In this document: positions 5,633-25,559 of the stretch, one piece after another
Layout of the letters: each line of letters opens with the position of its first letter
Position numbering within the stretch: position 1 is the first letter of the stretch
IMG/VR virus record: IMGVR_UViG_3300034072_000616
Location: 1-26,861 of that record
Source of the DNA: a virus
DNA length: 26,861 nt
Strand: one strand, 5' to 3'
Program-made: the position numbers and the translations under genes
The notes under the pieces: model-generated
Database searches by the model: none
Told to the model about the DNA's origin: nothing
The model's input: only the letters and a program-made list of their open reading frames with translations

Positions 5633-5666
5633 TAGGGCAGTCTGTCCGCCGCTGTTACCGCCGTCT
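5633..5666 (-). promoter_or_regulatory. Late promoter candidate A (before fibre and lysis block)
   Basis: The element RGACGGCGGTAAC (5654-5666 on the complement) is followed after 19 nt by TA (5634-5633). It lies between the Mtd-N-like fibre gene and the fibre/lysis block, 131 bp before the annotated start at 5522. Five copies with identical spacing occur in the window, all in the direction of late transcription. Confidence 0.6.
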
Positions 5667-5685
5667 AATTGACGCCCCGGCTCTG

Positions 5686-6264
5686 CTAAGCCTTGACCTT
5701 GAGGAAGAACCCGCCTGCGCCGTCACTGGTCTTGTAGATGTCGCCAGTGGAGAGACCGCCCGAGCCTGCTGCTGCGTCGCTGGCATAGGTCGGCGCATTG
5801 GCGATTTTCACGATCCCGCCCGTCCTGATTGCGATCGCGTCAATTGCGCCTTCGATGCTCAACGTTACGGTCGAGCCCCGAACGATAATCGGCACCCAAG
5901 CCACGCCTGACCTGTTGAAGGCCTGGATTGTGCCTGTGGGCGCATCAATCTCGATACCCTGCGCACCTCCGTTGCTGACCGCGAATGTGGTGGAAGGCGA
6001 ATCCGTGCCGACGCCCAGTCGAGAAAGACCGACAATTTCGCCGCCGGCTATATCAACATCATCCGCGTCTTGGGCTGCCAGCGTACCAAGCGCTGGCGGC
6101 GGGCCGCTGGCGTAAGCAAGATCATTCCATGCGGTGCTGCCGTCGCCATACTTGACCTTGCGCGTGTCTGTCTCCAGTCCCGGTTCGCCAAGCGCCAGCG
6201 TCGGGTTTACGCTTGTCCAGTTGGTTGCCGTGTCGCGGCGGAGGCGGATCTTGCGCTCGGTCAT
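5686..6264 (-). CDS. Tail fibre protein with Mtd N-terminal-like domain
   Basis: The 192-residue protein starts at an ATG overlapping the J-like gene stop. Residues 4-50 (IRLRRDTATNW, LALGEPGLETDTRKVKYGDGSTAWNDL) match the small N-terminal domain known from major tropism determinant and many fibre proteins, where it attaches the fibre to the tail tip. The rest is beta-rich with short hydrophobic repeats (VGTDSPSTTFAVSN, IEIDAPTGTI) and ends FFLKVKA, as in trimeric fibre shafts. No reverse transcriptase or template repeat is in the window, so diversity generation is not indicated. It lies directly upstream of promoter A. Confidence 0.65.
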   Translation of the reverse strand: MTERKIRLRRDTATNWTSVNPTLALGEPGLETDTRKVKYGDGSTAWNDLAYASGPPPALGTLAAQDADDVDIAGGEIVGLSRLGVGTDSPSTTFAVSNGGAQGIEIDAPTGTIQAFNRSGVAWVPIIVRGSTVTLSIEGAIDAIAIRTGGIVKIANAPTYASDAAAGSGGLSTGDIYKTSDGAGGFFLKVKA

Positions 6265-7901
6265 GGCGCCGCCTCGGTCGTCGCATCGCCGCCATCAAGC
6301 TCTGATGTGTCGGCGTCGTCAATGCCCTGCACGATCGGGTTCAGTGAGAAGTCATAGGTCGATGGCGGCGCGGCCTGCACCGGGGGCTGTTCTTCTTCAT
6401 CCCAGGCATAGATCAGCGGGCTTTCCTCGCGCAGCACGACAGGCACGGTGCCATCAACGCGATGCTCCATCTCGGCGACGCGAAAGAGCTTGTCCACCCA
6501 ACCCAGCGGCGCGAACGATAGCTCGATCGGGCTGTTCTTGCGGATGCGCCAACCGGTGGCGTCGAGCGTGCAGGTGAACGCCCCGCCGAACTGCTGGCGC
6601 TGCAAACGCTGTTTCGCAAGCCGCTGCGCCTGGCTGGCAGACTGCACCATGGGCAGGTCGAAGGTGTCGATACGGTCGATGCCGTCCACGCTCGCCAGCT
6701 CGATCTGCGGATAGTCCACGGGCTGATAGAGCGCATTGTCGCTCGGGTCCGTGAATATCCCGCGCACGATGTTGAAGGTCTCGTCGAGCGCCGGGGTCTG
6801 CCGCCACTCGAACTCGCCAAGCACGTTGTCGGTCGTGAAGCTGGCTTGCGGCACGGCAAGGTCATTGTAGAACACGAACAGCCTAAGCTTGCCGCCGACA
6901 TCGTCGAAATCGGCGTACATGCTCGCCTTGAGCGCGTCGATGACGGTGGTGGGGCTGTCAGCCTCCGAGAACACACCATCGCTGCGATAGCGCGGCTCCG
7001 TCCCGCCCGCCGCGAGCGAGATTTCATCGTCGCACAAATTGGCGGCCGCAATGAACGATTCCAGATCGATGCGCTGTTTCGGGATGCCGAGCCCCACCGC
7101 CAACTTTCCGTTGATCCGCCAGCCCAGCAGATACCAGAGCAGTTGCAGCGCAGGATTGCGCGCCGCATCGTTATCCCACGCCCAGGTCGACTGATTATCG
7201 GCGCGCTGGGAGCCGCTGCCCCCCGGAACGGTGCTGTCGAGGCGGGGGTCATAGACCTTCGCGCCCTTGCCCCTGATCGTGATGCGCGACGGGATCGACT
7301 GGGCGAACGGGCTCTCGGTCTTCTTGCTGTTGCCGGTCAGCTTGAAGCGCAGGTGGATATAGGCCAGCCCGGTGAATCGCCTGGTGCTGCCCATGCGCGC
7401 GCTGATATTGATGGCGTTGGCGGCGCTGCCCTCGGTGCGCGTGGCGACCGTCAGATAGCCGACAAACTCGCCTTGCACGCTGCCGCCTGCCGTCCATGCG
7501 AGCTTCTCGTCGAACCAGATTTCGTCGATCGACTGCACGGCATGGCTGGCGTTCACGATGAAGCGGTGCAGATAGGTCTGGTTGTCGGTGTATTCCTGAT
7601 CGCGGATATCGGTCGCCATCGCGGTCTGGCCGAACACGATCTTGCGCGGCGTGCGCGGGTCTATGCTGGCATTGAGGCGACTGATGGATTCCGGGCTGTT
7701 GCGCGGGGCTTGCGGCTTCTTGGCGAGCAGCGAGGCACCGATCGACAGGATGGATGACGCCGTGAGCAGCGCGCCCGCGCTGATGCCCGCTACCGTGGTC
7801 GAAAGCGCGCCAGCGATACCAAATGCAGCCGCGCCGCCCGTCGCGATGGTGATGGCAGCAATGGCGGTGACCGCAGCCGCGATCTTGAGAACCTTCGCCA
7901 T
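6261..7901 (-). CDS. Tail tip / central fibre protein J-like (phage-tail_3)
   Basis: This 546-residue protein opens with a hydrophobic Ala/Gly-rich segment (about 5-60) as in many J/tip-attachment proteins. It continues through RKIVFGQTAMATDI, LHRFIVNASHAVQSIDEIWFDE, a central region with AANLCDDEISL and SEADSPTTVIDALKASMYADF, and a hub-like part RIDTFDLPMVQSASQAQRLAKQRL. These are features of the lambda J-like 'putative phage tail protein' family. It is about half the length of lambda J, so host-binding functions are probably carried by the separate fibres downstream. It overlaps the K-like gene stop by 1 bp. Confidence 0.75.
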   Translation of the reverse strand: MAKVLKIAAAVTAIAAITIATGGAAAFGIAGALSTTVAGISAGALLTASSILSIGASLLAKKPQAPRNSPESISRLNASIDPRTPRKIVFGQTAMATDIRDQEYTDNQTYLHRFIVNASHAVQSIDEIWFDEKLAWTAGGSVQGEFVGYLTVATRTEGSAANAINISARMGSTRRFTGLAYIHLRFKLTGNSKKTESPFAQSIPSRITIRGKGAKVYDPRLDSTVPGGSGSQRADNQSTWAWDNDAARNPALQLLWYLLGWRINGKLAVGLGIPKQRIDLESFIAAANLCDDEISLAAGGTEPRYRSDGVFSEADSPTTVIDALKASMYADFDDVGGKLRLFVFYNDLAVPQASFTTDNVLGEFEWRQTPALDETFNIVRGIFTDPSDNALYQPVDYPQIELASVDGIDRIDTFDLPMVQSASQAQRLAKQRLQRQQFGGAFTCTLDATGWRIRKNSPIELSFAPLGWVDKLFRVAEMEHRVDGTVPVVLREESPLIYAWDEEEQPPVQAAPPSTYDFSLNPIVQGIDDADTSELDGGDATTEAAP

Positions 7902-8308
7902 CAGACCCTCCAGGCTTTTTGCCAGGCGGCGCGCTGGATCGTGACCAGCCCCTCGGCTTCGCCTTCTTGCCCGACGAACAGCCCGGTCGTGCCGTCACAC
8001 ACGCCAAGCGCTTCTCCGGTCCAGACGAGATCCCCGCGCCGCGCATGGCTCGGCGGGATAGTGGGCAGCATGGTGTCAACGGTGGCGTCGAGCGTCCCGG
8101 CACCATAGCGCGACAGGGCCAGCACAGAGCCTTGCGCGGTCGAGTAGCGCCCCCGGAATGCAGCCGCGATGTCGGTGTCCGTCATGGCGAGAACGGCGTT
8201 GGCGGAATGGAGGGCGCAGTCGTGGTCGCCGTAGCAAAATGGCTTGCGCCGCACGCTGGCCAGATACTCTGACAGCCGGGCATCCCAATCGGATCTGCGC
8301 GCGATCAC
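7901..8308 (-). CDS. DUF6950-like tail tip protein (K-like, NlpC/P60-related)
   Basis: The 135-residue protein starts at GTG 8308 overlapping the upstream stop (GTGA). Residues 20-45 read RRKPFCYGDHDCALHSANAV, with Cys31 in the place of the NlpC/P60 nucleophile, then DTDIAAAFRGRYSTAQG and HARRGDLVWTG. This is the signature I recall for the DUF6950 family, which sits at the lambda K position in many alphaproteobacterial phages. A peptidoglycan endopeptidase role at DNA entry is likely by position but not proven by motif. It lies between the L-like and J-like genes in a fully coupled run. Confidence 0.7.
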   Translation of the reverse strand: MIARRSDWDARLSEYLASVRRKPFCYGDHDCALHSANAVLAMTDTDIAAAFRGRYSTAQGSVLALSRYGAGTLDATVDTMLPTIPPSHARRGDLVWTGEALGVCDGTTGLFVGQEGEAEGLVTIQRAAWQKAWRV

Positions 8309-8955
8309 TGGAAATCCACCCTTGGCTGACCGATCGGCCCGCCACCGGGGCCACCACCACCCGTGCCAGCGGTGGCAGGGTTCGAATTGATGCCGTTCGC
8401 AATGGCGATGGCGGCGCGCGCGGACAGGTCGCCGCTGTCATAGCGCTCCTGGTCGAGATAGGTCCGGTTGCTGGCAGCGCGGAACGCGGCGAGATAGGTC
8501 TCGATCGTGACGCGGATGATCTGCCCCTGGTCATTCCCGCCGATGTCGAGCGCGGTCATGTAGCCGGTGTAATAGGCCTGGTATCCGCCCTGTTGCACGT
8601 TCGCGGCGTTGCGGACGATGCGCCAGAGCCGGGCGACGCGGCCCTGCCAGTTGGCACGGTCGCCGATGGTGGCCAGCGTCTCGTCGTCGATACCAGGAAG
8701 GCCAGACAGTTCGGCCGTCACGCTCTCGCTGCCACCCTCGCGCACCTGCACCGACGAGATATTGACGAACGCCGCGCCTATGCCGGTGAACAGCTGGCCG
8801 TCGAGGTCAGCGTCACCCGTCCCGCTCGGCGTCCAGTCTGCGCCCGAGGTATTCGCGCGCACCGGGTCACCATCGATGTCGAGAAAGGCGAACCAGACCG
8901 GCTTGATGATGCGGGCATCGAGCGCCGCCGCTGCTGTGCTGTCGGGGAGGCTCAC
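8305..8955 (-). CDS. Minor tail protein, L-like position
   Basis: The 216-residue product starts at GTG 8955 overlapping the preceding stop. It includes VWFAFLDIDGDPVRANTSGADWT, a middle region on baseplate-like beta structure (VREGGSESVTAELSGLPGID, WQGRVARLWRIVRN) and ARAAIAIANGINSN, ending in a Gly-rich tail (GTGGGGPGGGPIG). By gene order (TMP, M, L, K, J) it is the lambda gpL analogue or another hub component. I recall similar sphingomonad phage proteins annotated only as hypothetical. There is no visible Cys cluster for an Fe-S centre, unlike lambda gpL. Confidence 0.6.
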   Translation of the reverse strand: MSLPDSTAAAALDARIIKPVWFAFLDIDGDPVRANTSGADWTPSGTGDADLDGQLFTGIGAAFVNISSVQVREGGSESVTAELSGLPGIDDETLATIGDRANWQGRVARLWRIVRNAANVQQGGYQAYYTGYMTALDIGGNDQGQIIRVTIETYLAAFRAASNRTYLDQERYDSGDLSARAAIAIANGINSNPATAGTGGGGPGGGPIGQPRVDFQ

Positions 8956-9557
8956 AGGTTCTCCACCAGCGAAAGCTCGGTGCCAGACACCGACTGCGAA
9001 TAGGCCAGCGAGAACCCCGCATCGGCATTGGACACAGGAATGAACGGGTCGCCGGTTTCCACCACGGCATTATTGGCTGGCACCTCGTTTAGCGCGGGCT
9101 CGAATTGCGCCGTCGCCTGGCCGCTGCTGTTCGTCACCAGATCCGCGGTCAGCCCCACGGTGCGCCAGTGACCAGACGGCAGCGGCACGGTCATGAATTG
9201 ACCGGCGCGCAGGATGCGGGTCGAGGGAGCCATGCCGTCGAGCGGCAGGCTGTATCCGTCGCCAGTTGCGGCATTGACCAGCGGCTTGGGACCGTAATGG
9301 CGGTTGCAGGGCAGGGGCAGGCGGAACCAGTTCTGCTGCCCGCGCAACGACAGCAGGAAGGCACGCCAGGCGCGTTCCTGCTCCTCGGTGGTGATGTCGA
9401 CGATGGAGATGCGCGCCGCCCAGACCTCGGCACCGGGCAGGCCGATGATCTGCCGCCGTCCGGTCCAGATCGATCGGTTCTGCTGACCGGGCACGGACAG
9501 GTCGAGCGAGGTCATTTCCCATGCGCCGGGATCGTCGGGGAGATAAACCTCGGTCAT
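8952..9557 (-). CDS. Distal tail protein, M-like position
   Basis: The 201-residue protein has an ATG overlapping the tape measure stop. Motifs: LPDDPGAWEMTSLDLSVPGQQNRSIWTGRRQ, then EEQERAWRAFLLSLRGQQNWFRLPLP, and a C-terminal half of beta strands (ILRAGQFMTVPLPSG). The central part resembles tail proteins placed after the tape measure, where distal tail or baseplate ring proteins are encoded. The role as tail-tube cap or ring is inferred from gene order and coupling to the L-like gene (GTGA). Confidence 0.6.
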   Translation of the reverse strand: MTEVYLPDDPGAWEMTSLDLSVPGQQNRSIWTGRRQIIGLPGAEVWAARISIVDITTEEQERAWRAFLLSLRGQQNWFRLPLPCNRHYGPKPLVNAATGDGYSLPLDGMAPSTRILRAGQFMTVPLPSGHWRTVGLTADLVTNSSGQATAQFEPALNEVPANNAVVETGDPFIPVSNADAGFSLAYSQSVSGTELSLVENL

Positions 9558-12187
9558 ATGCGCGGCCTGCTGCTGCGGCGAAGCGCCTCGGATGCGCCTG
9601 CGTCCACGATCGCGGGGGCGGTAGCGCGCACCACCTCGACCGACACGCCTTGCGCGATGGTCTGGACCTGCGATGCAAAGCCCTCGCGCTCCTCGATCAC
9701 GATGCGGACCGTGCCGCCTGCGGTTGCCCCACCGCGCACCGCGTCCATGCGTCCCAGCGGCACGATGTTGCCCCCGGTGGATGGCCCGACGAACCCCTCG
9801 ACGCGGCCAGGCGATGCGCCCTCGTTGATGCGGTAGACCTGACCGGGCGCGACGGGGCCGCCGCTGGCGCGAGCAAAAAGCGAGCCGATCGTCTTGCCGA
9901 TGGAAAACACCTTGGACGCCGCGCCAGCAAGCCCACTGCTGGCAGAACCGCCGCCGCCACTGCCGAACAAGTTTTCGGCCAATGGCCTGATGACAGCCTG
10001 CTGGATCGCAATGCGAAGCAGATCGGCGACAATGGACTTGGCAACGCTGCTGAATACATCGCCCAGCGATTCGGCATTCAGTATCGCATCGACGAGCTGG
10101 TCGTTCAGGTTTTGCAGGCCATCGATCGCGATGCCTTCGACCTGATCGTTGATATTGTTGCCGGAGATGGTCAGGTCGCGCAGGAAGCGTTGGCCCGGCG
10201 ACTGGTTGGCGAGGTCGCTCTCGGTCCGAGCCTGCTTTTCGAGCGCGCCAAGGACGGCTAGGCGAGCACCAGCAATTCGCTCCTGAACATCGGTGCTGGA
10301 CAGCAGGGAAAGAACGAGTTCCTGCTCCGCTTGTGCTTGGCTGGCCTGGAGGTCGAGCAACCTGTTTTCGAGGCGTGCGCGGTCCTCTCTCGTCGTGGCG
10401 AGCGCGAGACTGGCGCGAACCAGATCCTGCTCGTTCTGGTTTGCTGCCGTGGCGAGATCAAACTGGTCCTGTGTCCGCTGGTCGAGACGACGCAGGGAAT
10501 CGGTCACGCTCTTGCCGAGTTCGCGGCCCTTGTCGGCAGCCTGACGGATATCGGCGTCGGAGAGACCTCCTGACGTGCTGCTCGAACTACTACGGCGGCG
10601 GCTCGACGGCGCGGCGACCGCCGCCACACGCGATGGCGCAGCGCCCTTTATAGCCGCGTCAATGGATGCCAGCCCTTTTTCGAGACCGGCAATCCGCGCC
10701 TGTGCATCTGCCACGCCCTGCCGCGCGGTCGCCTTGCGCGTGTCGCCCGTGCCTTGGATGAACAAGCCGCCGCCGGGCGTGGTCGCACCGATCGACGCCT
10801 GGTTCTGTGCTGCGGAAAAAGCCTTGGCGCGTGCTAGCTCGGCCTGCGCAAGCACCAGCGAGGCGCGGGCGCTTTCCAGCTTCTTCTTGGTGTTTTCACG
10901 CTCGGCCTGGGCAAGCTTCAACGCTTCCTCTCGTGCCTTGCCATGGGCATTGGCCAGTCGCTCTGCGGCCTCTGCGGCGGGACGCGTCGCCTCTGCGGAA
11001 ATCTCTTGCGCGCGGGCATGCGCCTTGGCCGCGACTGTTGCCTCGCTGGTTTCGGTGAACAGCGTGCCGAGTGCGAGCGCAACCGCCGTCACCGCCAACC
11101 CGATGCCCACGGGCCCGAGCAATGCGGCCTGCAACCCGCGAGCGGCGAATGCGGCTGCTTCCATGCCGGTTGCGGCTCCTGCCAGGCGAGCCTGCAGGGC
11201 AAAGGTCGCCGCCCCGACAACGCCCATGCTTGCGGCAGTCCCGCCAAGAGCGGCCTGCGCAGCAACATTTGCCGCCACGAACCGAACCGCGATGGTCGAT
11301 GCCAGCACCGCAATGGCCGGAATGACGATATCGAGATTATTGGCGAGCAGCTGGAGGCCACCCGCGATTGCCGCACTCGCCCCATTGGTCGCGGCAGCCT
11401 GCCCAACATAAACCGTCAGCTGGCTGTTCAGCGATTCGAACGCGCCCGCGATGGTGAGGGTGGCCTTGCTGGCCTGGCCTTCAAGCTGGCTGCTGCCTGC
11501 GAGGATGGCGGCGAAGAAGTCGCGGCTCGATACCTCTCCGGCAAGCACGGCCTCACGCAGCTTGGCAACACTTCCTCCGAAGCGCTCCGATGCTGCGGCG
11601 GCCTGCAAGAGCGGACGCAAGCCGCCCTCATTCACCTGGTTGAACTCTTCCGCGCGCACCGTCCCGCTGGCGAGCGCCTGTTGCAGGCCAAGGATCGCGC
11701 CGGATGCCTGCGTCGCGCTCGTCCCCGTGATCAGCAGCGCCTGACTGGTCGCCTCGGTGAGCGCAAGGAGCTGGTCTTGGCTGGCACCAAGCTCGCGGCC
11801 CGCCTGCGACGCATTGCCAAACAGTTCGGCGAGCGATTCAATGCTGACCCCATAGCGCCCCGACAATTCGAGCAGCCGGCTCTGCACCGCCTCAAGGTTT
11901 GCGCCTTCAAGCCCGGCCACCTTCAGGCTGTTCTGCAACCGGGTGAAGCCGTCGATCAAGCCGACCAGCTCGCGGCCCGTAAACGCCGTTGCAAAGGTCG
12001 CGGCAAGCCCCTTGATCGACGAACCGATGGCCCCGCTGGACTTGCGCATCTGCGCCTCAAGATCGCGGACACGCTTTTCCTGCAGGCCGAGCTGCTGATC
12101 GACCGTCTTGGTCGCGCGTCGTACATCGCCGAGATAGCGATCAACCTGCGCGCGCAATTCGAGGATGACTGGGTCGATTTCAGGCAT
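9554..12187 (-). CDS. Tape measure protein
   Basis: This 877-residue protein sets tail length. The N-terminal ~280 residues match the TMP_3 type: LRAQVDRYLGDVRRATKTVD, FTRLQNSLKVAGLEGANL, LLELSGRYGVSIESLAELF, TSATQASGAILGLQQALASG and FNQVNEGGLRPLLQAAA. Hydrophobic segments follow (about 285-315 and near 365-390), then long Ala/Glu/Lys coiled coil, a Ser-rich linker and a Gly-rich C-terminus. At about 0.15 nm per residue the tail would be near 130 nm (inference). It begins at ATG 12187 without a clear Shine-Dalgarno; promoter candidate B ends 10 nt before this ATG, so the message may be leaderless. It is preceded by the frameshift tail-chaperone pair, as in most siphophages. Confidence 0.85.
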   Translation of the reverse strand: MPEIDPVILELRAQVDRYLGDVRRATKTVDQQLGLQEKRVRDLEAQMRKSSGAIGSSIKGLAATFATAFTGRELVGLIDGFTRLQNSLKVAGLEGANLEAVQSRLLELSGRYGVSIESLAELFGNASQAGRELGASQDQLLALTEATSQALLITGTSATQASGAILGLQQALASGTVRAEEFNQVNEGGLRPLLQAAAASERFGGSVAKLREAVLAGEVSSRDFFAAILAGSSQLEGQASKATLTIAGAFESLNSQLTVYVGQAAATNGASAAIAGGLQLLANNLDIVIPAIAVLASTIAVRFVAANVAAQAALGGTAASMGVVGAATFALQARLAGAATGMEAAAFAARGLQAALLGPVGIGLAVTAVALALGTLFTETSEATVAAKAHARAQEISAEATRPAAEAAERLANAHGKAREEALKLAQAERENTKKKLESARASLVLAQAELARAKAFSAAQNQASIGATTPGGGLFIQGTGDTRKATARQGVADAQARIAGLEKGLASIDAAIKGAAPSRVAAVAAPSSRRRSSSSSTSGGLSDADIRQAADKGRELGKSVTDSLRRLDQRTQDQFDLATAANQNEQDLVRASLALATTREDRARLENRLLDLQASQAQAEQELVLSLLSSTDVQERIAGARLAVLGALEKQARTESDLANQSPGQRFLRDLTISGNNINDQVEGIAIDGLQNLNDQLVDAILNAESLGDVFSSVAKSIVADLLRIAIQQAVIRPLAENLFGSGGGGSASSGLAGAASKVFSIGKTIGSLFARASGGPVAPGQVYRINEGASPGRVEGFVGPSTGGNIVPLGRMDAVRGGATAGGTVRIVIEEREGFASQVQTIAQGVSVEVVRATAPAIVDAGASEALRRSSRPRI

Positions 12188-12188
12188 G

Positions 12189-12434
12189 TCAGTTGGCTAC
12201 ACCGCGCGCACCTGCCGCGTTACCGCCGTCCCTGTGCGCCTTGAGAAACCGTTTGAGACCATCGCTGGCCTGCCGGTCGGGCTTGTCGCTGCTGTGCGCT
12301 TCATTGTGCGCCTCAAGCGCTTCGAGATAGTCGGACAGGTCGAGCGTGCGCCAGTCGAGCCCCATCGCCCCACAATTGGCGATCAGCTGTCCTTTTCGGT
12401 ATCGCTCAGGCTCTCGCCGGGGGCCGGTTCCGCT
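12189..12434 (-). CDS. Tail assembly chaperone extension read by -1 frameshift
   Basis: In the -1 frame relative to the chaperone gene, an open frame runs from the A9 slip site to TGA 12189, one base before the tape measure ATG. A -1 slip would fuse residue 131 of the chaperone to 81 new residues (total 212 aa), containing DWRTLDLSDYLEALEAHNEAH and a basic LKRFLKAHRDGGN tail. This mirrors lambda G/GT, where the longer product links the chaperone to the tape measure. An internal ATG at 12365 with a poor Shine-Dalgarno could instead start a separate 58-residue protein. Promoter candidate B lies within its last codons. Confidence 0.6.
   Translation of the reverse strand, partial: SGTGPRREPERYRKGQLIANCGAMGLDWRTLDLSDYLEALEAHNEAHSSDKPDRQASDGLKRFLKAHRDGGNAAGARGVAN
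12198..12231 (-). promoter_or_regulatory. Late promoter candidate B (tape measure)
   Basis: RGACGGCGGTAAC at 12219-12231 on the complement is followed after 19 nt by TA at 12199-12198. Ten bases separate this TA from the tape measure ATG, which has no Shine-Dalgarno. If TA is at -12/-11, the first transcribed base is the A of that ATG. The element overlaps the end of the chaperone extension, where it is read as Asp-Gly-Gly-Asn. Confidence 0.6.
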
Positions 12435-12826: not shown

Positions 12827-12830
12827 GGGA

Positions 12831-13277
12831 TCAGACTGCGGCCGTCCAGGTCCAGGTGCCATCGCTGGCGAGCGTGATTTCGCCGCTGCTGTCGCCATTG
12901 GCGTCGAGCGACATGTTGGCGCTGGTCAGATTGAACGCCCCGGCGAAGGTGCCCATCAGGTCGCCGGTATCGGTGCCGTCGTACTTGTAGAGCTCGACCT
13001 TGTAGTTCTTGACCACGCCCAGCGCATCATCGAACGCCTCGATGTCGGCCTTGTCCACGCCGCCGGTTCCGGTGATGTCCATCTGCTTCGATGTGGTCTT
13101 GGAGCGGCGCACGGCGGGCTGGCCAGGCTTGGCGCAGTCGCGGCGGTTGCGGTCGCTCGTGTTCGCAACGCGGTTGATTGAGACGTTTTCAATACCGCAG
13201 ATGGCGGTGAACACTTCCGGCGTCGCACCATCGCCGACCTTGATCAGCGCAAAATCACTTTCGTTCGGAATCGACAC
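12831..13277 (-). CDS. Major tail tube protein
   Basis: The 148-residue protein starts at GTG 13277 with an AAAGGAG Shine-Dalgarno. Its sequence fits the tail tube family: DFALIKVGDGATPEVFTAICGIENVSINR at the start, a central KTTSKQMDITGTGGVDKADIEAFDDALG, then YKVELYKYDGTDTGDLMGTFAGAFNLTSANM and a beta-rich end. Length is within the usual 130-180 residues for siphophage tube proteins. Promoter candidate C would give it a 23-nt leader. No sheath gene accompanies it, which argues for a non-contractile tail. Confidence 0.8.
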   Translation of the reverse strand: MSIPNESDFALIKVGDGATPEVFTAICGIENVSINRVANTSDRNRRDCAKPGQPAVRRSKTTSKQMDITGTGGVDKADIEAFDDALGVVKNYKVELYKYDGTDTGDLMGTFAGAFNLTSANMSLDANGDSSGEITLASDGTWTWTAAV

Positions 13278-13310
13278 AGCGCGGGGCTCCTTTCACAGTT
13301 GGAGCCGTTC

Positions 13311-13344
13311 TAAGCCGCCTCAGTCGCCTTCGTTACCGCCGTCC
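13311..13344 (-). promoter_or_regulatory. Late promoter candidate C (tail tube)
   Basis: RGACGGCGGTAAC at 13332-13344 on the complement, then 19 nt, then TA at 13312-13311. The predicted start of RNA near 13300 leaves a 23-nt leader that contains the tail tube Shine-Dalgarno. The upstream part overlaps the end of the 82-residue gene, where it again encodes Asp-Gly-Gly-Asn. Confidence 0.6.
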
Positions 13345-14172: not shown

Positions 14173-14573
14173 CCGCTTCCTTTCACCAGCTTGTTCATCT
14201 GCTCGACATAGCGCTTGCGGATCTCGGGCAGCTTCTTGTCGCGCGCGGCTCTCACGTGTGGCCTTTGCTGCATCTTGCTCGTCCCGAATTCCAAGGCGCG
14301 CGCATATGGAGCTTTTGACCGAAACTCTGCTGTGAGCGAACCCGTTTGCACAGCCTCAAAATTAGCTTGAAGGACTCCAGTGTCCCGGTTCGGCGGTTCA
14401 TTCGGCTTCGATGGAACGTGATCTTTTCCAGAGACAGAACCCGCAGACACAAGCCGAAAGGCCTCCGCCCTTATTGTGTCGGCACCTTCATAAGCGATTG
14501 CGCCGGCCAATTGTATAACCCGCTTGCTTGCCAGTCGCTTGAGGCGATCAGTGTGCCTTTTCCCGCCTTTCAT
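14169..14573 (-). CDS. HK97 gp10-like head-tail joining protein
   Basis: I place the start at ATG 14573 (134 aa) because it overlaps the HNH gene stop (ATGA) and yields the usual opening MKGGKRHTDRLKRL; an in-frame ATG at 14600 would add nine residues. Motifs: AGAIAYEGADTIRAEAFRLV, PNEPPNRDTGVLQANFEAV, and the characteristic APYARALEFGTSKMQQRPHVRAARD near residues 90-115. The family joins head and tail (tail completion). The adjacency of an HNH gene just upstream shows that the mobile gene was accommodated without damage here. Confidence 0.85.
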   Translation of the reverse strand: MKGGKRHTDRLKRLASKRVIQLAGAIAYEGADTIRAEAFRLVSAGSVSGKDHVPSKPNEPPNRDTGVLQANFEAVQTGSLTAEFRSKAPYARALEFGTSKMQQRPHVRAARDKKLPEIRKRYVEQMNKLVKGSG

Positions 14574-15136
14574 AGCCACCCCCACCGATCGCCGCGCCAT
14601 ATCTTCTGTATCGCCTCGGCCCGCACCCCGAATTTCCGCGCGACAACCCCAGAATTATGGACCCCTTTCATCGTCCTGATTTCAATAACCTCCGCCTCGG
14701 TTAGCTTAGCGTTGGCACTGTTTTCGCCACGATTGTCGGTCCCATGCACCAAGCGGTCCATCATGTTCTCGGATGGCGAAGCCCACCTTAGATGAGCTGG
14801 ATTGACGCAGGTCGGATTGCCGCAACTATGCGCAGCGTGCGGCCTGTCAACTGGCGCGTCGCCGTGCGCCCAGAAACACATCAATCGGCTCGCTCTACGC
14901 GAATATGGGTGAGTAACCTTGCCATATCCATGCTGATCTGTTCCGAACGGCCATAAAAGGCACTCATCGCCATCATGGGAGATGTGCGCTTCGAGCCACT
15001 TTAGCCCTTCAAGGCGATGCTCGCCCCCCAAGGGGTCGCCATGCCGCAGGAAGCGGACATAGTGCGCCTTGCACCACCCGCGAGAATTCACGCGCTTGCC
15101 GCAGCCTTCAATTGAGCATAGACGGGTATCAGCCAT
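14570..15136 (-). CDS. HNH homing-type endonuclease (copy 1)
   Basis: The start at ATG 15136 has a GAGGAG Shine-Dalgarno and gives 188 residues; the upstream in-frame extension runs through the hairpin leader and is rejected. Residues 7-25 form a small Cys/His cluster (CSIEGCGKRVNSRGWCKAH). Residues 98-120 hold the HNH core, AAHSCGNPTCVNPAHL, with His103, Asn112 and His115. The C-terminus (145-185, LTEAEVIEIRTMKG, NSGVVARKFGVRAEAIQKI) is a helix-turn-helix for DNA recognition. It sits between head-tail connector genes, as homing endonucleases often do in phages, and has a leader in common with two other genes of the window. Confidence 0.85.
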   Translation of the reverse strand: MADTRLCSIEGCGKRVNSRGWCKAHYVRFLRHGDPLGGEHRLEGLKWLEAHISHDGDECLLWPFGTDQHGYGKVTHPYSRRASRLMCFWAHGDAPVDRPHAAHSCGNPTCVNPAHLRWASPSENMMDRLVHGTDNRGENSANAKLTEAEVIEIRTMKGVHNSGVVARKFGVRAEAIQKIWRGDRWGWL

Positions 15137-15165
15137 TTTCGACTCCTCAACAGTCGGTTTGGTTA

Positions 15166-15199
15166 GGGCTGGCAGGTGTTGGTAGCACCTGTTCAGCCC
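15166..15199 (-). promoter_or_regulatory. Hairpin leader of HNH copy 1
   Basis: On the transcript strand an outer stem GGGCTG/CAGCCC encloses an inner stem CAGGTG/CACCTG with loop CUACCAA, an unpaired AA on the 5' side and a C on the 3' side. It is followed by TAACCAAACC. The base of the stem lies 29 nt before the ATG. A possible sigma70-like promoter TTGGCA-N17-CATAAA (15204-15232) ends just 5' of it, so the RNA would begin with the hairpin. Confidence 0.5.
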
Positions 15200-15246
15200 G
15201 TCATTTATGGCAGAAAACTGCCGATTTGCCAAGGCATAAGCACCCT

Positions 15247-15624
15247 TCATCCGATCAGCCGCCCCTGGCACTCATAGCCGATGCCAGCCGGATCGCGCGC
15301 CGCACTCAACAGCGACCATGTGCCGGCGCGGGGGCCATCTGTCACCACAATGCTCGCCTCGGTGGTCAGCGTGCCCGCCAGCGATGCGGACAGCACCAGA
15401 ATGCGAACGTCCGTCTGCTGGAAACCCTCGGTTTCACGCATCGCGGTGGTCGCTGCGTCGAACTGGCACTTGCACGGCAGATCAACCGGCGTGCCGGGCG
15501 TCACGATCGAGCCGCCGTCGTCATAGACCGGCGTGCCGGGCCACGATGCCGTCGCGTCAATGAACGGGCCACCGAATGCCTCCGAAAAGCCCGTGGCGAG
15601 ATTGGCGAAGATCTGGTCAAACAC
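15247..15624 (-). CDS. Head-tail connector protein (head closure-like)
   Basis: The 125-residue protein starts at GTG 15624 within the end of the DUF4054 gene (8-bp overlap). It reads FDQIFANLATGFSEAFGGPFIDATASWPGTPVYDDGG, then DLPCKCQFDAATTAMRETEGFQQTDVRILVLSASL and GPRAGTWSLLSAARDPAGIGYECQGRL. The closing pattern (GTW..L, D..G..YECQGR) is typical of small beta-barrel head-tail adaptor or head-closure proteins. Position after DUF4054 agrees. The next annotated element downstream is the HNH cassette, which separates it from the gp10-like gene. Confidence 0.65.
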   Translation of the reverse strand: MFDQIFANLATGFSEAFGGPFIDATASWPGTPVYDDGGSIVTPGTPVDLPCKCQFDAATTAMRETEGFQQTDVRILVLSASLAGTLTTEASIVVTDGPRAGTWSLLSAARDPAGIGYECQGRLIG

Positions 15625-16039: not shown

Positions 16040-16062
16040 CCCCAATCCCCCGATTGAACCGG

Positions 16063-16353: not shown

Positions 16354-16355
16354 GA

Positions 16356-17453: not shown

Positions 17454-17465
17454 TGTTTCAGCCCC

Positions 17466-17936: not shown

Positions 17937-17949
17937 CGGTCAGCCCTCC

Positions 17950-19047
17950 TTATGCGATGTTGCGGAAGCGGCGGGCTGCATCGCGGATGGATGCAGTGTT
18001 CGCCATCGGGTTGGTGGGGCGCACGATGTTATGCACGATCGAGCTTGCGGCCTTCGCATCGGCGGTCAGCGCATCGAACCGGGCCTCGACATAATCGTCG
18101 GACTTGTCGGTGACATCGATCGCGGCGGCGTCCAGAGCCATGCGGCGAACCTCGGCAACGGTCTTGCCCTTGGTCTCGCCCAGCTTGTCCCCGACGACTG
18201 CCTTTGCCTTCGCGACCACTTCGGCCTTCGCATCGGCGAGCGCGTCGATTGCAGCCTGGTCGACGACCTTCTTCTTCAGTTCGTCAATCTCGGCGTCCTT
18301 TGCCGCCATGGCCTTGTCGTGGGCGCTCTTCGCATCAGCCAGCGCGGTTTCGGCGGTGCTCGCCTTGTCCTGCAGCTTGGCGATGGCCGCAGACACCGCA
18401 TCGGCGTCCGACAGATCGACCTGCAGGCCGTCCAATGTGATCTTCTTCACGGCATTTCCTTCTTGAAGCGCGGCGACTGCCGCAGGGTTGGCGTCACAAA
18501 CAGCGATGGCGTCGGCAATGCGACATTCGGGGCCAGCGCGACCACGATCGACCAGGGCGATGTGATTGCCGACGATGGCCGTCTGCTTGACATCGTAGGC
18601 ATGCCCCTCGGGCGTGGTGCCGGGGGTGAAGTCGAGCGTGGTCTGGTAGCCGTTCGACAACTCGCGCTTGCCAGACTTGACCGCGGCGATCGCGGCGGCA
18701 TCGGTCAGCATCAGGTCGAACGAGACGTATTCGCCATCACGGACAGCACCCATGACGGTCCCGCGCGCGTGCTCGCGCCAGTTGTCGGCGGTCACTGCGG
18801 TTGTGGGGTGATCGTTGGTGATGGGCTTGCCGATGAAGCTGGCAATGCTGGCGCGGTCGAATACCTGGTCGCCGCTGCGATAGACCTTGACTACCGCCTT
18901 GTCGCGCAGGCCGTGGGCGTTATCGGGGTCAACCTCGGATCCGGCGTAATCGTAGAGGCCGGTCCGGGCAGCACGGGCGCGCACAGCAAGGAATCCCTCG
19001 CGAGTGGTCTTGGGCGCGTCGAGCGTCAGATGGTCGAATGCGATCAT
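17950..19047 (-). CDS. DUF2213 prohead protease fused to scaffold
   Basis: This 365-residue protein combines an N-terminal DUF2213 domain (about 1-185) with an Ala/Lys/Asp-rich coiled coil (about 210-300, KLQDKASTAETALADAKSAHDKAM and similar). Conserved positions: NDHP around His80, ELSNGY with Ser131, and NHIALVDRGRAG with His162, the probable catalytic set of an HK97-protease-like fold. The coiled-coil part would serve as internal scaffold. The ATG at 19047 has no Shine-Dalgarno; promoter candidate D ends 11 nt upstream, implying a leaderless message. It heads the protease, cement and capsid group. Confidence 0.8.
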   Translation of the reverse strand: MIAFDHLTLDAPKTTREGFLAVRARAARTGLYDYAGSEVDPDNAHGLRDKAVVKVYRSGDQVFDRASIASFIGKPITNDHPTTAVTADNWREHARGTVMGAVRDGEYVSFDLMLTDAAAIAAVKSGKRELSNGYQTTLDFTPGTTPEGHAYDVKQTAIVGNHIALVDRGRAGPECRIADAIAVCDANPAAVAALQEGNAVKKITLDGLQVDLSDADAVSAAIAKLQDKASTAETALADAKSAHDKAMAAKDAEIDELKKKVVDQAAIDALADAKAEVVAKAKAVVGDKLGETKGKTVAEVRRMALDAAAIDVTDKSDDYVEARFDALTADAKAASSIVHNIVRPTNPMANTASIRDAARRFRNIA

Positions 19048-19058
19048 GCCCCACGGGA

Positions 19059-19092
19059 TAAACCGCGCGGGTGGGGAGGGTTACCGCCGTCT
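19059..19092 (-). promoter_or_regulatory. Late promoter candidate D (DUF2213-capsid group)
   Basis: RGACGGCGGTAAC at 19080-19092 on the complement, 19 nt, then TA at 19060-19059. The predicted start of RNA falls one base before the DUF2213 ATG. This copy is purely intergenic: the preceding gene ends at 19103. Confidence 0.65.
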
Positions 19093-19102
19093 TAGGGTGC
19101 AA

Positions 19103-19285: not shown

Positions 19286-19602
19286 CACTCACCCCCTGCC
19301 AGAATGGCGTCGATCATGGCGGTCCATGCGTTGACCGCTTGGTTATTGGCCATCAGCTTGCTGCCACGCCCGTCAGCGATGGACGCATATTGACCGGCTC
19401 CAACCTCGGTATCGAGAACCTGCTCTCCACCCGCTTCGGTCATCGCCTCATCCGGCTCCCGGATTGCGGCCAGGACGGTGCGGGCGCTGTCAACAAAGAG
19501 CGTCCAGATCGGCGCTGGCGGCGACACGTGCGATATCTGCTTGTCTGGATCATGGCCATTTTCGACTGCCAATGCACGCGCGGCGCGTTCGAGCGGGGTC
19601 AT
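19285..19602 (-). CDS. Hypothetical accessory protein (105 aa)
   Basis: The start ATG 19602 overlaps the stop of the winged-helix-like gene (ATGA); the frame is open seven codons further but that part is antisense-like. It begins TPLERAARALAVENGHDP, an opening I have often seen in small phage early/accessory proteins, and has a middle APIWTLFVDSARTVLAAIREPDEAM and C-terminal helix AVNAWTAMIDAIL. Occurrence within the late head genes is unusual and points to a gain in this lineage. Function unknown. Confidence 0.55.
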   Translation of the reverse strand: MTPLERAARALAVENGHDPDKQISHVSPPAPIWTLFVDSARTVLAAIREPDEAMTEAGGEQVLDTEVGAGQYASIADGRGSKLMANNQAVNAWTAMIDAILAGGE

Positions 19603-20057
19603 GCCGCAATATCCTCGTTCCAATCACTATCATCAATGATAGCTTCCGACCATGGCCGCATTCCGGCAGCTTCAATCGCCTGTCGATTTTCCGGCGTGGC
19701 AGGGATGAATGAGAAGGCATAGCTATCGCCAAGTCCGCCGCCGTAGGTTTTTACCTGCAAGCTCTCTTTAAGCGCGTCATTGCCTTCAAAGACATAGCCG
19801 GTACGCGATCCCCAATCGTATTGGCTTTCGCGATAGAACTTTCCGCTTTCCCATAGCCGCTTGCTCATCGCGCTATGGGTGTCAATGCGGGTGATTTTGC
19901 CTGTCTTGCGGTGGCGATAGACCATATGGCCGTTGCGGTTCAGAACTTCGAGCGCGCGCTTGCGGGGCACGCCTGCGACGCTTGCGATTTCAGAATAGGT
20001 CGTGCCGTCCTTAAGCTTGAGCAGCTGGCGGGCGGCGTCTAAGATCGGCTTAGCCAT
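19599..20057 (-). CDS. Winged-helix-like protein in a homing-type cassette
   Basis: The 152-residue protein starts at ATG 20057; upstream in-frame sequence is the hairpin leader and is excluded. Residues 17-58 (DGTTYSEIASVAGVPRKRALEVLNRNGHMVYRHRKTGKI) look like a winged helix with a basic recognition helix and wing. The rest (FYRESQYDWGSRTGYVFEGNDAL, TPENRQAIEAAGMRPWSEAIID) I do not recognise; it has no HNH, GIY-YIG or LAGLIDADG motif. The gene is preceded by the same hairpin leader as both HNH genes, has the same stop/start overlap with its successor (ATGA), and is less GC-rich than the structural genes by eye. It may be a DNA-binding partner, or a new kind of inserted gene. Confidence 0.6.
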   Translation of the reverse strand: MAKPILDAARQLLKLKDGTTYSEIASVAGVPRKRALEVLNRNGHMVYRHRKTGKITRIDTHSAMSKRLWESGKFYRESQYDWGSRTGYVFEGNDALKESLQVKTYGGGLGDSYAFSFIPATPENRQAIEAAGMRPWSEAIIDDSDWNEDIAA

Positions 20058-20083
20058 ATCGAACTCATCCTTCGTTGTGGTCA

Positions 20084-20117
20084 GGGCCGGGCGCTGTTGA
20101 CGCAGCGTTCCCGGCCC
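20084..20117 (-). promoter_or_regulatory. Hairpin leader of the winged-helix-like gene
   Basis: Outer stem GGGCCGGG/CCCGGCCC, unpaired AA on the 5' side, inner stem CGCTG/CAGCG, loop CGUCAA. The 3' flank is TGACCACAAC, the same as for HNH copy 2. The base of the stem is 26 nt before the ATG. A weak sigma70-like candidate TTGGAT-N16-TACACA (20122-20149) is just 5' of it. Confidence 0.5.
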
Positions 20118-20140
20118 GTCTTGTGTAGCACATTGCTGCG

Positions 20141-20992
20141 CTAATCCAAAATGAGAACCGCCCTTTCGGTGCATCCACAATTAATAGGTACGCCAGCCCG
20201 GTCTGATGGCGGCGGTGGCTTCTTGACAGTTTTGCCTTGGTATTTCTGCCCGACACGCTCTTGGCTTTCGGAATAGAGATTGCCGTTGCGCGCTTTGTGC
20301 TCTGGCCTAAAATCCGGCTTCCCAGAGGACACCCACTCGAAGCTGTCGATTCCTGCTTGGCGGCGGCGTTCTTGGTTTAGCTCTGCTCCAAGGCTGGTGA
20401 GCTGGTCGCTGGCAATGTTTTTGGCTCGCCTTCTACTCATGGCGATCACTTCCTGAAGCTCTGCAGCCACCTTGTTCGCTGGTTTACGCTCCCGGAATCC
20501 CTGAAACACTACGTTCGCAATGCGCTGCTTTGTCTGGTCTGAGACAGAACTGACGAGGCTGACATTTTGCTCAATCACAGAGGCGACTGTCTGCCTTACG
20601 TCTTGTGGGCCTATCAGATTATCCAGCGACACATTCGTTGCAGTAAGCACATTGCCCACCCAGCGCCTGCGATGCCACGCCTCGACGCTCTCGGACCAGC
20701 GCCCTATGGCGAACCGCAGCGACACGATGACGCCGGACACGGACGACGATGCGGCCTCAATGCGCGCCGTGACATCAGCCGGGGCGTCGGTCTGTAGCTC
20801 GCTCAGCGACTGCGCATAAGCGGCGGTGATGCTTTCCAGCGAGGCTGACCAGATCGCGATCACCGGGGCGTAGACACTGGTGTAGAGCGCGGTTGCCTGT
20901 AGCGCGGTCGGGGTGATCGGGCGCAGGATAATGACGAGGCGGCGGGGATTGCGCGCCCTTCGCGTCATGTCTGCCAGGTCGAAGGACGCCAT
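20141..20992 (-). CDS. Phage head morphogenesis protein (SPP1 gp7 / Mu F family)
   Basis: The 283-residue protein starts at ATG 20992 overlapping the HNH copy 2 stop (TGATG). The N-terminal half is helical (TALQATALYTSVYAPVIAIW). The C-terminal half carries the family core: FQGFRERKPANKVAAELQEV, SRRRAKNIASDQLTSLGAELNQERRRQAGI, FEWVSSGKPDFRPEHKARNG and a terminal PINCGCTERAV. This minor head protein family binds portal or DNA inside the procapsid. Gene order places it after the portal, with only the HNH gene intervening. Confidence 0.85.
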   Translation of the reverse strand: MASFDLADMTRRARNPRRLVIILRPITPTALQATALYTSVYAPVIAIWSASLESITAAYAQSLSELQTDAPADVTARIEAASSSVSGVIVSLRFAIGRWSESVEAWHRRRWVGNVLTATNVSLDNLIGPQDVRQTVASVIEQNVSLVSSVSDQTKQRIANVVFQGFRERKPANKVAAELQEVIAMSRRRAKNIASDQLTSLGAELNQERRRQAGIDSFEWVSSGKPDFRPEHKARNGNLYSESQERVGQKYQGKTVKKPPPPSDRAGVPINCGCTERAVLILD

Positions 20993-21558
20993 CAGGTCAA
21001 TCGTCCATGGCGAGCGCTGAACCCATGATCCATCAATGCGGATTGCCTTGCTGCTACCGCATCCTGAAAATCAGAGAAGTGGCCCAGAGTGGTTTCTTTG
21101 CCGTCGACCATGATCCGAGCGCGCCACTTGCCCCGAGTGGGTCGCCAGCTAACGCCGGTCACGCCGCTCGTATTACAGCTTTTGCCAGCGGCATTGCGCA
21201 GGTTCATCGCATGGCTAACTGATTGGAGATTGGACCACCGATTATCGCTTCGCACACCGTTGATATGATCAATGTCTGCCTCTGGCCAACTGCCTGTTTG
21301 GATTGCCCAGATGACCCGATGCGCCAAATACAGCCTGCCGTTGATTGAGCCGTGGTAATACCCGTGGTTGCCTATATCGGTAAAAGCCTCATTGCCTGCG
21401 TTGCGGCCATTCCAAGCCGCTGCTTTGCGCACGGGGCTCATCACGCCAATGGCGAAATGGCATGGCTTACGAACAAGCCAAAACAGCTTTCCGGTTTCGG
21501 GTTCGTAGCGGAGTAGTTGACGCAGCAATTCTGCATCAGGTAGGGGCTTATTAGCCAT
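20992..21558 (-). CDS. HNH endonuclease with AP2 domain (copy 2)
   Basis: The ATG at 21558 has a GAGGTG Shine-Dalgarno and gives 188 residues, the same length as copy 1 though the sequences are not alike. Residues 20-30 are the common 'ETGKLFW' opening. The HNH_3 core is at 95-120: DIDHINGVRSDNRWSNLQSVSHAMNLRN (His98, Asn106, Asn110). Residues 131-180 form an AP2 DNA-binding domain (SGVTGVSWRPTRGKWRARI, ETTLGHFSDFQDAVAAR). This pair of domains is the usual build of phage HNH-AP2 homing endonucleases. It stands between portal and morphogenesis genes. Confidence 0.9.
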   Translation of the reverse strand: MANKPLPDAELLRQLLRYEPETGKLFWLVRKPCHFAIGVMSPVRKAAAWNGRNAGNEAFTDIGNHGYYHGSINGRLYLAHRVIWAIQTGSWPEADIDHINGVRSDNRWSNLQSVSHAMNLRNAAGKSCNTSGVTGVSWRPTRGKWRARIMVDGKETTLGHFSDFQDAVAARQSALMDHGFSARHGRLT

Positions 21559-21586
21559 GAACGCACCTCGTATGCGGTTGTGGTCA

Positions 21587-21620
21587 GGCTCGGCGGCGTG
21601 TTGGTAGCATCCGTCGAGCC
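21587..21620 (-). promoter_or_regulatory. Hairpin leader of HNH-AP2 copy 2
   Basis: Outer stem GGCTCG/CGAGCC, inner stem CGG-AUG/CAC-CCG with one bulged G on the 3' side, and the same seven-base loop CUACCAA as copy 1. The 3' flank is TGACCACAACC. The base of the stem is 28 nt before the ATG. A weak promoter candidate TTGCGC-N17-TAGGTA (21627-21655) lies 5' of it. Confidence 0.5.
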
Positions 21621-21665
21621 GCAATTTACCTAGCATTTCCGCCGTTTTTGCGCAAACACTAAGCA

Positions 21666-23585
21666 TCAGCTTTCCTCGATTTTCGCCCGCCAGTCTTCAT
21701 CAATACTTTCGAAAATCTCCGGGCCGAACCGCAGCACGCCGCGATAGGGCTCGATCGCATCGACATCGACCTCGGGCGCGTTGTAGGAAATCGTCACGTG
21801 CGGCTGATATTCGGGCCAATCCCACGATGCACCGGCATTGCGGATCTGTTCATGCCGCCATGCGAGGCGCGACGATCCGAACAGCAGCACAACGGCCTCG
21901 CCATCCTTGCCGAGCCGTTCGACCAGGCGCGGGCCACCGGGGTTGATGACCAGCGTGCCGTCCTTTTCCTCGTTCCAGTCGTTCGCTTCGACCTTGAGCC
22001 AGTCGATTGGCTGGCGGCTGAACGCGATGGTCACGTGCATGTCGCTGCCATCGATCGTGGTCGCAATGCCCTGCGCCTTGGCCCATGCGATCAGGTCGCC
22101 GCTGTTGAGCAGCTTGCGGTGCACGTAGAGCGGGCGCGGGGTGGCATCCTGCAATGCCTGCGCATCATTGGCCGCCCGGCGCAGATCGTCGTCGCCTGCG
22201 CCGCCGCGAGATATCGGATCACCTCCTTCCTCTAGACCACCAAGATCATCATCGCTCGGGTCAGCCTGCTCGAGCCCATACCGCTCATCGTCGGAGAGCG
22301 GCAGGAGCGCAGCCTCAAGCTCGGGCCACATGCCCTCATCGATGGCCCAGGACTGCACCGCCTGCGCAAAGGCACGGTCGGGGATGGTCGCGGTTTCCTG
22401 AATGATCTTGATCGTCTCGGCCTCGGCCTTGCGTCGTTCCGCCTCGGCCTTCTGGTCGGGCATGTCGAGCGGCGCCCATTCGTACCATTGCCCATCGGGA
22501 ACGCTGCCGATCGCGGATTGCAGCAGGTAGCGGTCGAATCGCTCCAGGCATGGCGCAAGGTCGAGTTCCTGCATTGCCCGGATCTTCTTGTTCCAGTCGG
22601 TCTGCTGGCTCTCGCCGCTGCTGTTCATGCCCTCCGGTGCGCGGCCCAGCAGGCGGGTGGCCGGAATGTCGGAGACGGCCGCGACGAACTCGCCGTAACT
22701 GTTGAGGATGTCCTTGGCCCCGGCAAAGCTGTAGCTGCTGTCGTCGATCTTCTCGCCGCCTTTGCCCTCGCCATCGCCTGCGTCGTAGATGAAGGCGTTG
22801 TGGATGCTCTCGGCCATGGCAAGGATCGACATGCGCGCCGCCACCTGATCGGTGCCGGTCTGCGTCGAGGCGAGCTCCATCAGCCGCGGGATGCCAATGC
22901 GCAGGGTCCGGGCCTTGTGCATAAGGGCTGCGAACGAGGCGCGGGCGCTGTCGCTGTCGGCAACCGCATCAAGCACTTGCTGGACAGTACTCTCGCCCCA
23001 ATAGGCGTCGTGGCCGGCATAGGTGATCATAGCCAGCGAGGCGGTGGTATCGGCGCGGAACGGAATCACGCGCGAAGGGTGGAGCGTCTGCTGGCCGCCT
23101 TGACCGGTGAGCGTCCACATGACCGGATCGAGATAGCCGGGCTCTCGCGCGTCTTCCTGATACTTGCTGAACGACAGATGCCAGCGCGAGACGACGTTGA
23201 CGTAGGCGAGCTGGTCGCGGCCGATATTGGCGGGTGCGGGCTCGCTCGGGTTTCCGGGCAGGCCGAGGATAAGGGCACCACCGCCCATGCCGCGCAGCAC
23301 CTCGACCTGGCGCACCTTCTGCCGGATCATCAGCCGCTTCTCGAGCGCCTCGACCGCGCTGATCTGTTCCGACTCCAGCTTCCACTCACGCCATTCGCGC
23401 ACCATGTCCATGGCAGGAATCTGCACGATCTTGCGCATCAGCGGTGAGCCGGAATAGGCCTGCGCGATCTGGTGCTGCGTCATCGGAACGGCGGTGTAGG
23501 TGTTCGCCGTTCGGGGGTCGCGGCCTGTGCCTGTCCCTGCGATGGCGTTCTGCAGGCGGTCGATGAGGTTCAGCACTTTGCCCAT
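21666..23585 (-). CDS. Portal protein fused to Acb1-like 2H phosphoesterase
   Basis: The 639-residue protein has a DUF1073-type portal domain (about 1-430): TAVPMTQHQIAQAYSGSPLMRKIVQIPAMDMVREW, then LADIPATRLLGRAPEGMNSSGE-like region and ARMSILAMAESIHNAFIYD. An acidic linker (about 430-475) leads to a C-terminal domain (about 483-639) beginning LYVHRKLLNSGDLIAW and holding two HxT motifs, MHVTIAF (His517, Thr519) and PHVTISY (His596, Thr598), the 2H phosphoesterase signature. DUF1073 portals with such an end are related to anti-CBASS Acb1, which degrades cyclic nucleotide signals. The ATG has no Shine-Dalgarno; promoter candidate E ends 10 nt before it. Confidence 0.8.
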   Translation of the reverse strand: MGKVLNLIDRLQNAIAGTGTGRDPRTANTYTAVPMTQHQIAQAYSGSPLMRKIVQIPAMDMVREWREWKLESEQISAVEALEKRLMIRQKVRQVEVLRGMGGGALILGLPGNPSEPAPANIGRDQLAYVNVVSRWHLSFSKYQEDAREPGYLDPVMWTLTGQGGQQTLHPSRVIPFRADTTASLAMITYAGHDAYWGESTVQQVLDAVADSDSARASFAALMHKARTLRIGIPRLMELASTQTGTDQVAARMSILAMAESIHNAFIYDAGDGEGKGGEKIDDSSYSFAGAKDILNSYGEFVAAVSDIPATRLLGRAPEGMNSSGESQQTDWNKKIRAMQELDLAPCLERFDRYLLQSAIGSVPDGQWYEWAPLDMPDQKAEAERRKAEAETIKIIQETATIPDRAFAQAVQSWAIDEGMWPELEAALLPLSDDERYGLEQADPSDDDLGGLEEGGDPISRGGAGDDDLRRAANDAQALQDATPRPLYVHRKLLNSGDLIAWAKAQGIATTIDGSDMHVTIAFSRQPIDWLKVEANDWNEEKDGTLVINPGGPRLVERLGKDGEAVVLLFGSSRLAWRHEQIRNAGASWDWPEYQPHVTISYNAPEVDVDAIEPYRGVLRFGPEIFESIDEDWRAKIEES

Positions 23586-23595
23586 GATGCAGGGG

Positions 23596-23629
23596 TATGC
23601 TGGATCGTGCCCGGGTGTTACCGCCGTCT
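23596..23629 (-). promoter_or_regulatory. Late promoter candidate E (portal)
   Basis: RGACGGCGGTAAC at 23617-23629 on the complement begins within the TAG stop of the terminase gene, then 19 nt, then TA at 23597-23596. Ten bases separate TA from the portal ATG; with TA at -12/-11 the first base of RNA is the A of that ATG. No Shine-Dalgarno precedes the ATG. Confidence 0.65.
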
Positions 23630-25546: not shown

Positions 25547-25559
25547 GGTCAAGTGTCCG

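Follow-up and report, generated by a model that had tools for sequence, protein, structure and literature searches.

The late region and the repeated element

The DNA analysed here (the window) is a virus fragment of 26.9 kb (26,861 nt) that contains the late region of a siphovirus, with genes for TerL, portal, protease, capsid, tail and lysis proteins. Two HNH endonuclease genes (20992-21666 and 14570-15271) lie between structural genes inside the late operon, and the gene at 20992-21666 had no homologue among the relatives compared.

A scan of the whole window found exact copies of the 13-bp box RGACGGCGGTAAC at 5654, 12219, 13332, 19080 and 23617, every one of them on the minus strand, which is the direction of the late genes. 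A first-order Markov model predicts 0.0009 copies. No sixth exact copy was present in the window, and one additional match appeared when two mismatches were allowed; GACGGCGGTAAC was the commonest 12-mer in the window. In all five copies a TA dinucleotide follows exactly 19 nt past the box, and none of the 19 spacer columns holds an invariant base across the copies. The boxes precede the genes for the portal (start at 23585), the head maturation protease (19047), the major tail protein (13277) and the tape measure protein (12187), and the region before the ORF that starts at 5522 (Table 1). A first-pass annotation had described five copies and no others, one orientation along late transcription, a TA after a variable spacer of exactly 19 nt and a location before late genes, and each of these points agreed with our scan. 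When the TA is taken as positions -12 and -11, the ATG falls at +1 for the portal and tape measure genes and at +2 for the protease gene. A search of the late strand for sigma-70 consensus promoters, with hexamers like TTGACA and TATAAT at a distance of 16-18 nt, gave no match.

Table 1. Features of the late region in the window and boxes carried by relatives
Feature	Position	Strand	Remarks
Late promoter copy 1 (box-N19-TA)	23596..23629	-	Predicted +1 at 23585, the A of the portal ATG; predicted leaderless
Portal gene	21666..23585	-	PHROG 146, E 8.5e-107; start at predicted +1
Late promoter copy 2	19059..19092	-	ATG 19047 at +2; predicted leaderless
Head maturation protease gene	17950..19047	-	PHROG 530, E 2.4e-88
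Inverted repeat, protease	19049..19076	-	CCCCAC (19076-19071)/GTGGGG (19054-19049); TA in loop, 3' arm adjoins ATG
Late promoter copy 3	13311..13344	-	Predicted +1 at 13300; 23-nt leader, SD AAAGGAG, GTG start 13277
Inverted repeat, tail tube	13285..13306	-	GGCTCC (13306-13301)/GGAGCC (13290-13285); 5' arm at -6..-1, 3' arm over SD
Major tail (tube) protein gene	12831..13277	-	PHROG 1407, E 1e-14
Late promoter copy 4	12198..12231	-	ATG 12187 at +1; predicted leaderless
Tape measure protein gene	9554..12187	-	PHROG 3336, E 1.5e-50
Late promoter copy 5	5633..5666	-	ATGs at 5624 and at 5621 (+2) for a 17-codon ORF; the following SD-led gene starts at 5522
Candidate late activator, small HTH protein (MMATESRR...)	26427..26729	-	Upstream of metallopeptidase-TerS-TerL; start 26729 or 26726
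CAACGGCGGTAAA box			G007, G014
TGAGGGGTATAAA box			G009, L067
GCGGCGGGAA box			'Synechococcus' phages Ssp-JY40, Yong-M3-232
CGTCCGTAG box			G011, G013, L018, L051; spacing uncertain by one base
CAGCGTCGGTAAC box			L315
CCGCCGTAAT box			L075

The element in related phages

Relatives were collected as IMG/VR records found via the portal and the terminase. In the structural-gene relatives, the RGACGGCGGTAAC-type box occurred 47 times in the forward and 6 times in the reverse direction, against 10 and 13 for control strings. All matches inside any one whole record share one strand, and motif-rich records hold 2-7 copies each, before late genes. The genes that follow the box are homologous late genes, and the N19-TA spacing is unchanged. 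The earlier reading of the element as a late promoter, for which strand bias in relatives and position relative to gene starts had been proposed as checks, is supported on both counts.

We examined 115 distinct class-A sites from relatives, which were selected by GACGGCGGTAA alone, so that the A at -11 played no part in their selection. A-11 was present in 94% of these sites (background 19%), T-12 in 66% and T-44 in 89%; the spacer positions carried at most 0.22 bits each, and the T-7 of the sigma-70 -10 element was not conserved among the sites. The first ATG lay 31 or 32 nt past the box in 66 sites and 30-33 nt past it in 78.

The hosts named in the genome collection belong to Blastomonas, Novosphingobium and Sphingomonas. 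In the whole genome of Blastomonas natatoria (4.0 Mb), all five box-spacer-TA matches fell in one prophage on a single strand, as did all four matches in N. ovatum. In three relatives (G004, G017 and G019), a terminator-like GC-rich hairpin with its T run lies immediately upstream of the box of the head-tail gene, an arrangement that fits a fresh start of transcription at that point.

Start codons and predicted leaderless mRNAs

Start positions were taken from protein alignments, with the in-frame ATG or GTG nearest the aligned start chosen in each gene, and distances were measured from A-11. The start codon lay 9-13 nt past A-11 in 34 of 36 portal genes, 43 of 44 protease genes, 9 of 10 head-tail genes and 6 of 11 tape-measure genes; the other tape-measure genes start 26-28 nt past A-11. 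The tail-tube genes start 29-35 nt past A-11 in 22 of 22 cases, all with a Shine-Dalgarno (SD) sequence, and GTG is allowed there. ATG was the start codon in all 92 genes of the near-start group, whereas GTG was used in 10 of the 27 genes of the group with an SD leader (Fisher 8e-8), with a small bias towards ATG possible because ties in the choice of start were resolved to ATG.

Leaderless translation needs AUG. The mRNAs of the portal, protease and head-tail genes and of some tape-measure genes are probably leaderless, and the tail-tube genes are predicted to differ from this group by the presence of an SD leader. Leaderless mRNAs are common in Caulobacter, in which 375 have been mapped (PMC4117421).

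These distances also bear on two other explanations of the repeats. The first-pass annotation had named a repressor stoperator series as its main alternative; in such a stoperator or operator series, transcription would be blocked by an immunity repressor bound to the 13-bp asymmetric sites. The sites do resemble the stoperators of mycobacteriophage L5 in being 13 bp long, asymmetric, of single orientation and intergenic (PMC9283540). However, A-11 stands at the fixed 19-nt spacing in 94% of the sites, start codons occur at +1/+2, the copies are few and lie before late genes, and the sites lack the additional promoter elements that would enclose an operator; a stoperator series is very unlikely on these grounds.

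The second explanation is an element that acts on the mRNA at the level of translation, comparable to the start-associated sequences found in cluster K mycobacteriophages, and the constant distance to the start codons of several genes speaks for it. However, the cluster K elements were proposed to act beside the start codon (PMC3203893), whereas the present box ends 31-32 nt before it. The tail-tube starts lie about 20 nt farther away and have their own SD sequence, yet they follow an identical box-N19-TA; it is the TA, rather than the start codon, to which the spacing is constant. We find a translation-level element hardly credible.

Inverted repeats at the tail-tube and protease promoters

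At the tail-tube promoters, the stretch from the TA to +1 pairs with the SD region, and in 14 of 22 promoters the last base of the 5' arm is at -1 or -2, counted from the predicted start. The arms paired better with their own partners than with partners exchanged between phages (z 6.5; 0 of 5000), and a control region gave a z of 1.3. At the protease promoters, the arms flank the TA and the 3' arm lies next to the ATG; the same comparison of own with swapped partners gave a z of 6.4 (0 of 5000), a statistic that refers to the group, the instance in the window having been seen by eye and by folding. No inverted repeat was detected by this test at the portal and head-tail promoters. The arm sequences are lineage-specific at both the tail-tube and the protease promoters.

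The layout at the tail-tube promoters, with the 5' arm upstream of the predicted start and the 3' arm over the ribosome-binding site (RBS), is that of gene e of phage T4. We infer that the purpose of the repeats is to leave upstream read-through RNA untranslated at the tail-tube and protease genes: on such RNA the repeat would hide the start, and transcripts begun at the promoter itself would escape the masking. If transcription started about 8 nt earlier than predicted, the tail-tube hairpin would instead be a 5'-terminal stem-loop.

A small helix-turn-helix protein as candidate activator

When motif-bearing and motif-lacking relatives were compared, one small ORF tracked the class-A box. In the gene order it is followed by genes for a metallopeptidase, TerS (DUF2280) and TerL. 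The product has about 100 aa and a core that reads RPCPxDFREvFleLGwskeIeeHYrTNWRvIrRWIeEsGGeeLraeR. It matched no Pfam or PHROG family at E<=1 save one chance hit, had no sequence match in PDB, and was not recognised by Pfam or PHROG models as a GafA/GafY, MotA, Ogr, Mor/C or Q regulator. An AlphaFold2 model of moderate confidence (mean pLDDT 72.8; 81-87 in the helical core) placed helices 38-45 and 49-59 in an arrangement like a helix-turn-helix (HTH), and a Foldseek search with the model gave no significant PDB match. In L295 (3830-4720), a longer ORF (252 residues shown) seemingly contains three tandem domains like the HTH core.

The small HTH protein is present in nearly every relative. 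Loci retrieved by this protein alone carried 69 boxes in the forward and 1 in the reverse direction, compared with 8 and 7 for controls. Conversely, among loci retrieved by the box alone, some of them from phages already in the comparison set, the protein was encoded in 8 of 33 promoter-like cases versus 1 of 84 others (p 1.5e-4), in 8 of 8 cases on the same strand as the box. In two relatives (L318 and L291), the regulator gene itself has a box upstream at the leaderless distance, which suggests autoregulation. Taken together, the sequence comparisons indicate that the small HTH protein is likely to be the activator that works the late promoters; it could alternatively be a DNA packaging or other factor.

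Neighbouring genes were also considered. DUF2280/TerS and the PhageMetallopep protein were both rejected as the regulator, since each occurs across several box classes and is missing from motif-bearing phages, and the window ORF at 26182-26826 is a shadow frame of the regulator ORF. The gene at 25560-26318 received the label 'transposase' from PHROG 513 and matched Pfam PhageMetallopep with an E of 1.1e-35; the PHROG label looks wrong. The portal and the regulator of the window are near-identical to those of one relative (G001, L246-L248), at 91% and 92%. The metallopeptidase-TerS-TerL cassette that lies between them in the window (23628-26318) nevertheless gave no hit to G001, and this packaging module appears to have been swapped.

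Variation of the box and its probable pairing with the candidate regulator

Iterated profiles detected the small HTH protein also in relatives that lack the class-A box, and these relatives carry other boxes at the equivalent position. Ranking of k-mers in these relatives was swamped by codon bias, and the boxes were read from aligned upstream regions of homologous genes. The boxes differ between lineages (TGACGGCGGTAAC, CAACGGCGGTAAA, TGAGGGGTATAAA, GCGGCGGGAA and CGTCCGTAG; see also Table 1), and the TA and its spacing are retained. Two of the phages, Ssp-JY40 and Yong-M3-232 (L244, L245), are recorded from Synechococcus and carry a promoter and regulator system of alphaproteobacterial type; they may actually infect an alphaproteobacterium that grew in the same culture.

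With boxes curated by hand, a Mantel test correlated box similarity with similarity of the small HTH protein at r 0.39, and at a partial r of 0.35 (p 0.002) when the portal, protease and morphogenesis proteins were controlled for. Box similarity was uncorrelated with TerL (-0.19) and the protease (0.04). The correlations with the portal (0.51) and the morphogenesis protein (0.52) were higher than that with the small HTH protein, so that the test did not single out the latter over these two proteins, and part of the pairing may be due to linkage or common descent. Three phages (G029, G031 and G032) have a class-A box despite divergent small HTH proteins. Pairing of box and regulator is thus supported by these comparisons, not proven.

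The same two results favour an alternative in which the sites are promoters whose box is read by another phage protein or by an ECF-type sigma factor of the host. In addition, GGTAAC of the box resembles GGAAC, the -35 sequence of EcfG promoters. However, phages whose hosts are related differ in their boxes and share the architecture, a pattern incompatible with reading by a fixed host sigma factor. As for another phage protein, the small HTH protein occurs in nearly every relative and retrieves boxes by itself. A phage sigma factor in particular is disfavoured, because sigma region 2 was found in none of 16 phage records, which are possibly incomplete, in a search that detected its controls; sigma region 4 gave weak, partial HTH hits only. 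The T7-type polymerase profile PF00940 gave no match either in the phages or in the control, and so is not evidence of absence. A reader of the box other than the small HTH protein seems improbable.

Proposed mechanism and significance

The conservation and strand bias of the element, its distance to start codons and its association with the small HTH protein point to a real, group-wide class of late promoters with a strong candidate activator. We consider it likely that each copy is a late promoter in a class that has its own activator, recruits the host polymerase and serves leaderless and masked starts. The 13-bp box at -44 to -32 would replace the -35 element, T-12 and A-11 would be all that is left of the -10 element, and transcription would start about 11 nt after A-11. 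The small HTH protein would bind the box and recruit the host's RNA polymerase, carrying the main sigma factor, to promoters that are otherwise without elements, and this recruitment would turn on the portal, protease, tail-tube, tape-measure and distal units together late in infection. The leaderless-looking starts, the regulator and the inverted repeats are additions to the first-pass annotation.

A wider proposal, to which we give an even chance, is that alphaproteobacterial siphophages hold mutually specific pairs of promoter and activator, each comprising an HTH core of about 60 residues, a diverging box at -44 to -32, a bare TA at -12/-11, leaderless starts and promoter-embedded hairpins that silence read-through of key structural genes. 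If the pairs are mutually specific, they would offer ready orthogonal promoters for use in alphaproteobacteria, and also a natural series on the joint change of a very small activator and its site.

The system would represent the late-gene switch of a set of phages and prophages of sphingomonads, a group with almost no members among the named phage records that were searched, and its candidate regulator falls in no described family; if the reading is true, phages would make leaderless structural-gene mRNAs in hosts related to Caulobacter. The suggestion in the first-pass annotation that the element may be a new class is plausible, as the open papers searched yielded no published consensus and the candidate activator lacks a Pfam, PHROG or PDB sequence match.

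Comparison with known systems

Among known systems, mycobacteriophage stoperators and start-associated sequences are likewise short, asymmetric, oriented, intergenic repeats; the former bind a repressor and terminate elongation (PMC9283540), and the latter are tied to translation starts (PMC3203893). Unlike the element in the window, neither is coupled to an A at -11.

The proposed promoters would work like the middle promoters of T4 (MotA/AsiA, sigma appropriation; PMC6755090), at which a phage DNA-binding protein reads a box that replaces the -35 element and the host polymerase reads the -10 side. They differ in the sequence and position of the box, in retaining only the TA of the -10 element and in that no AsiA-like partner was identified. 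The candidate regulator also has no MotA match in Pfam or PHROGs and, unlike MotA, would serve late structural genes.

From the gene transfer agent (GTA) clusters of Rhodobacter and Caulobacter, GafA and GafYZ are known as activators devoted to head and tail genes of phage type, and they act at degenerate host promoters (PMC9638019, PMC11150451). GafA is larger, with a DnaA-like domain, and is annotated as DUF6456; GafY, together with IHF, binds at a distant upstream site, and one promoter is served by GafZ as an anti-terminator (PMC9638019, PMC11150451). In the phages described here, by contrast, several promoters share a rigid box at -44 to -32, and the regulator has about 100 aa.

The inverted repeats find their parallel in T4 gene e, where the promoter likewise overlies the 5' strand of a repeat that masks the RBS (PMC3014915). 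Late transcripts of gene e lack the 5' arm of the masking hairpin, and since the promoter lies over that strand, only transcripts that start there are translated well (PMC3014915). Gene e serves lysis, whereas the repeats of the present phage group, with arms that vary between lineages and a masking role that is predicted, serve the tail tube and the protease.
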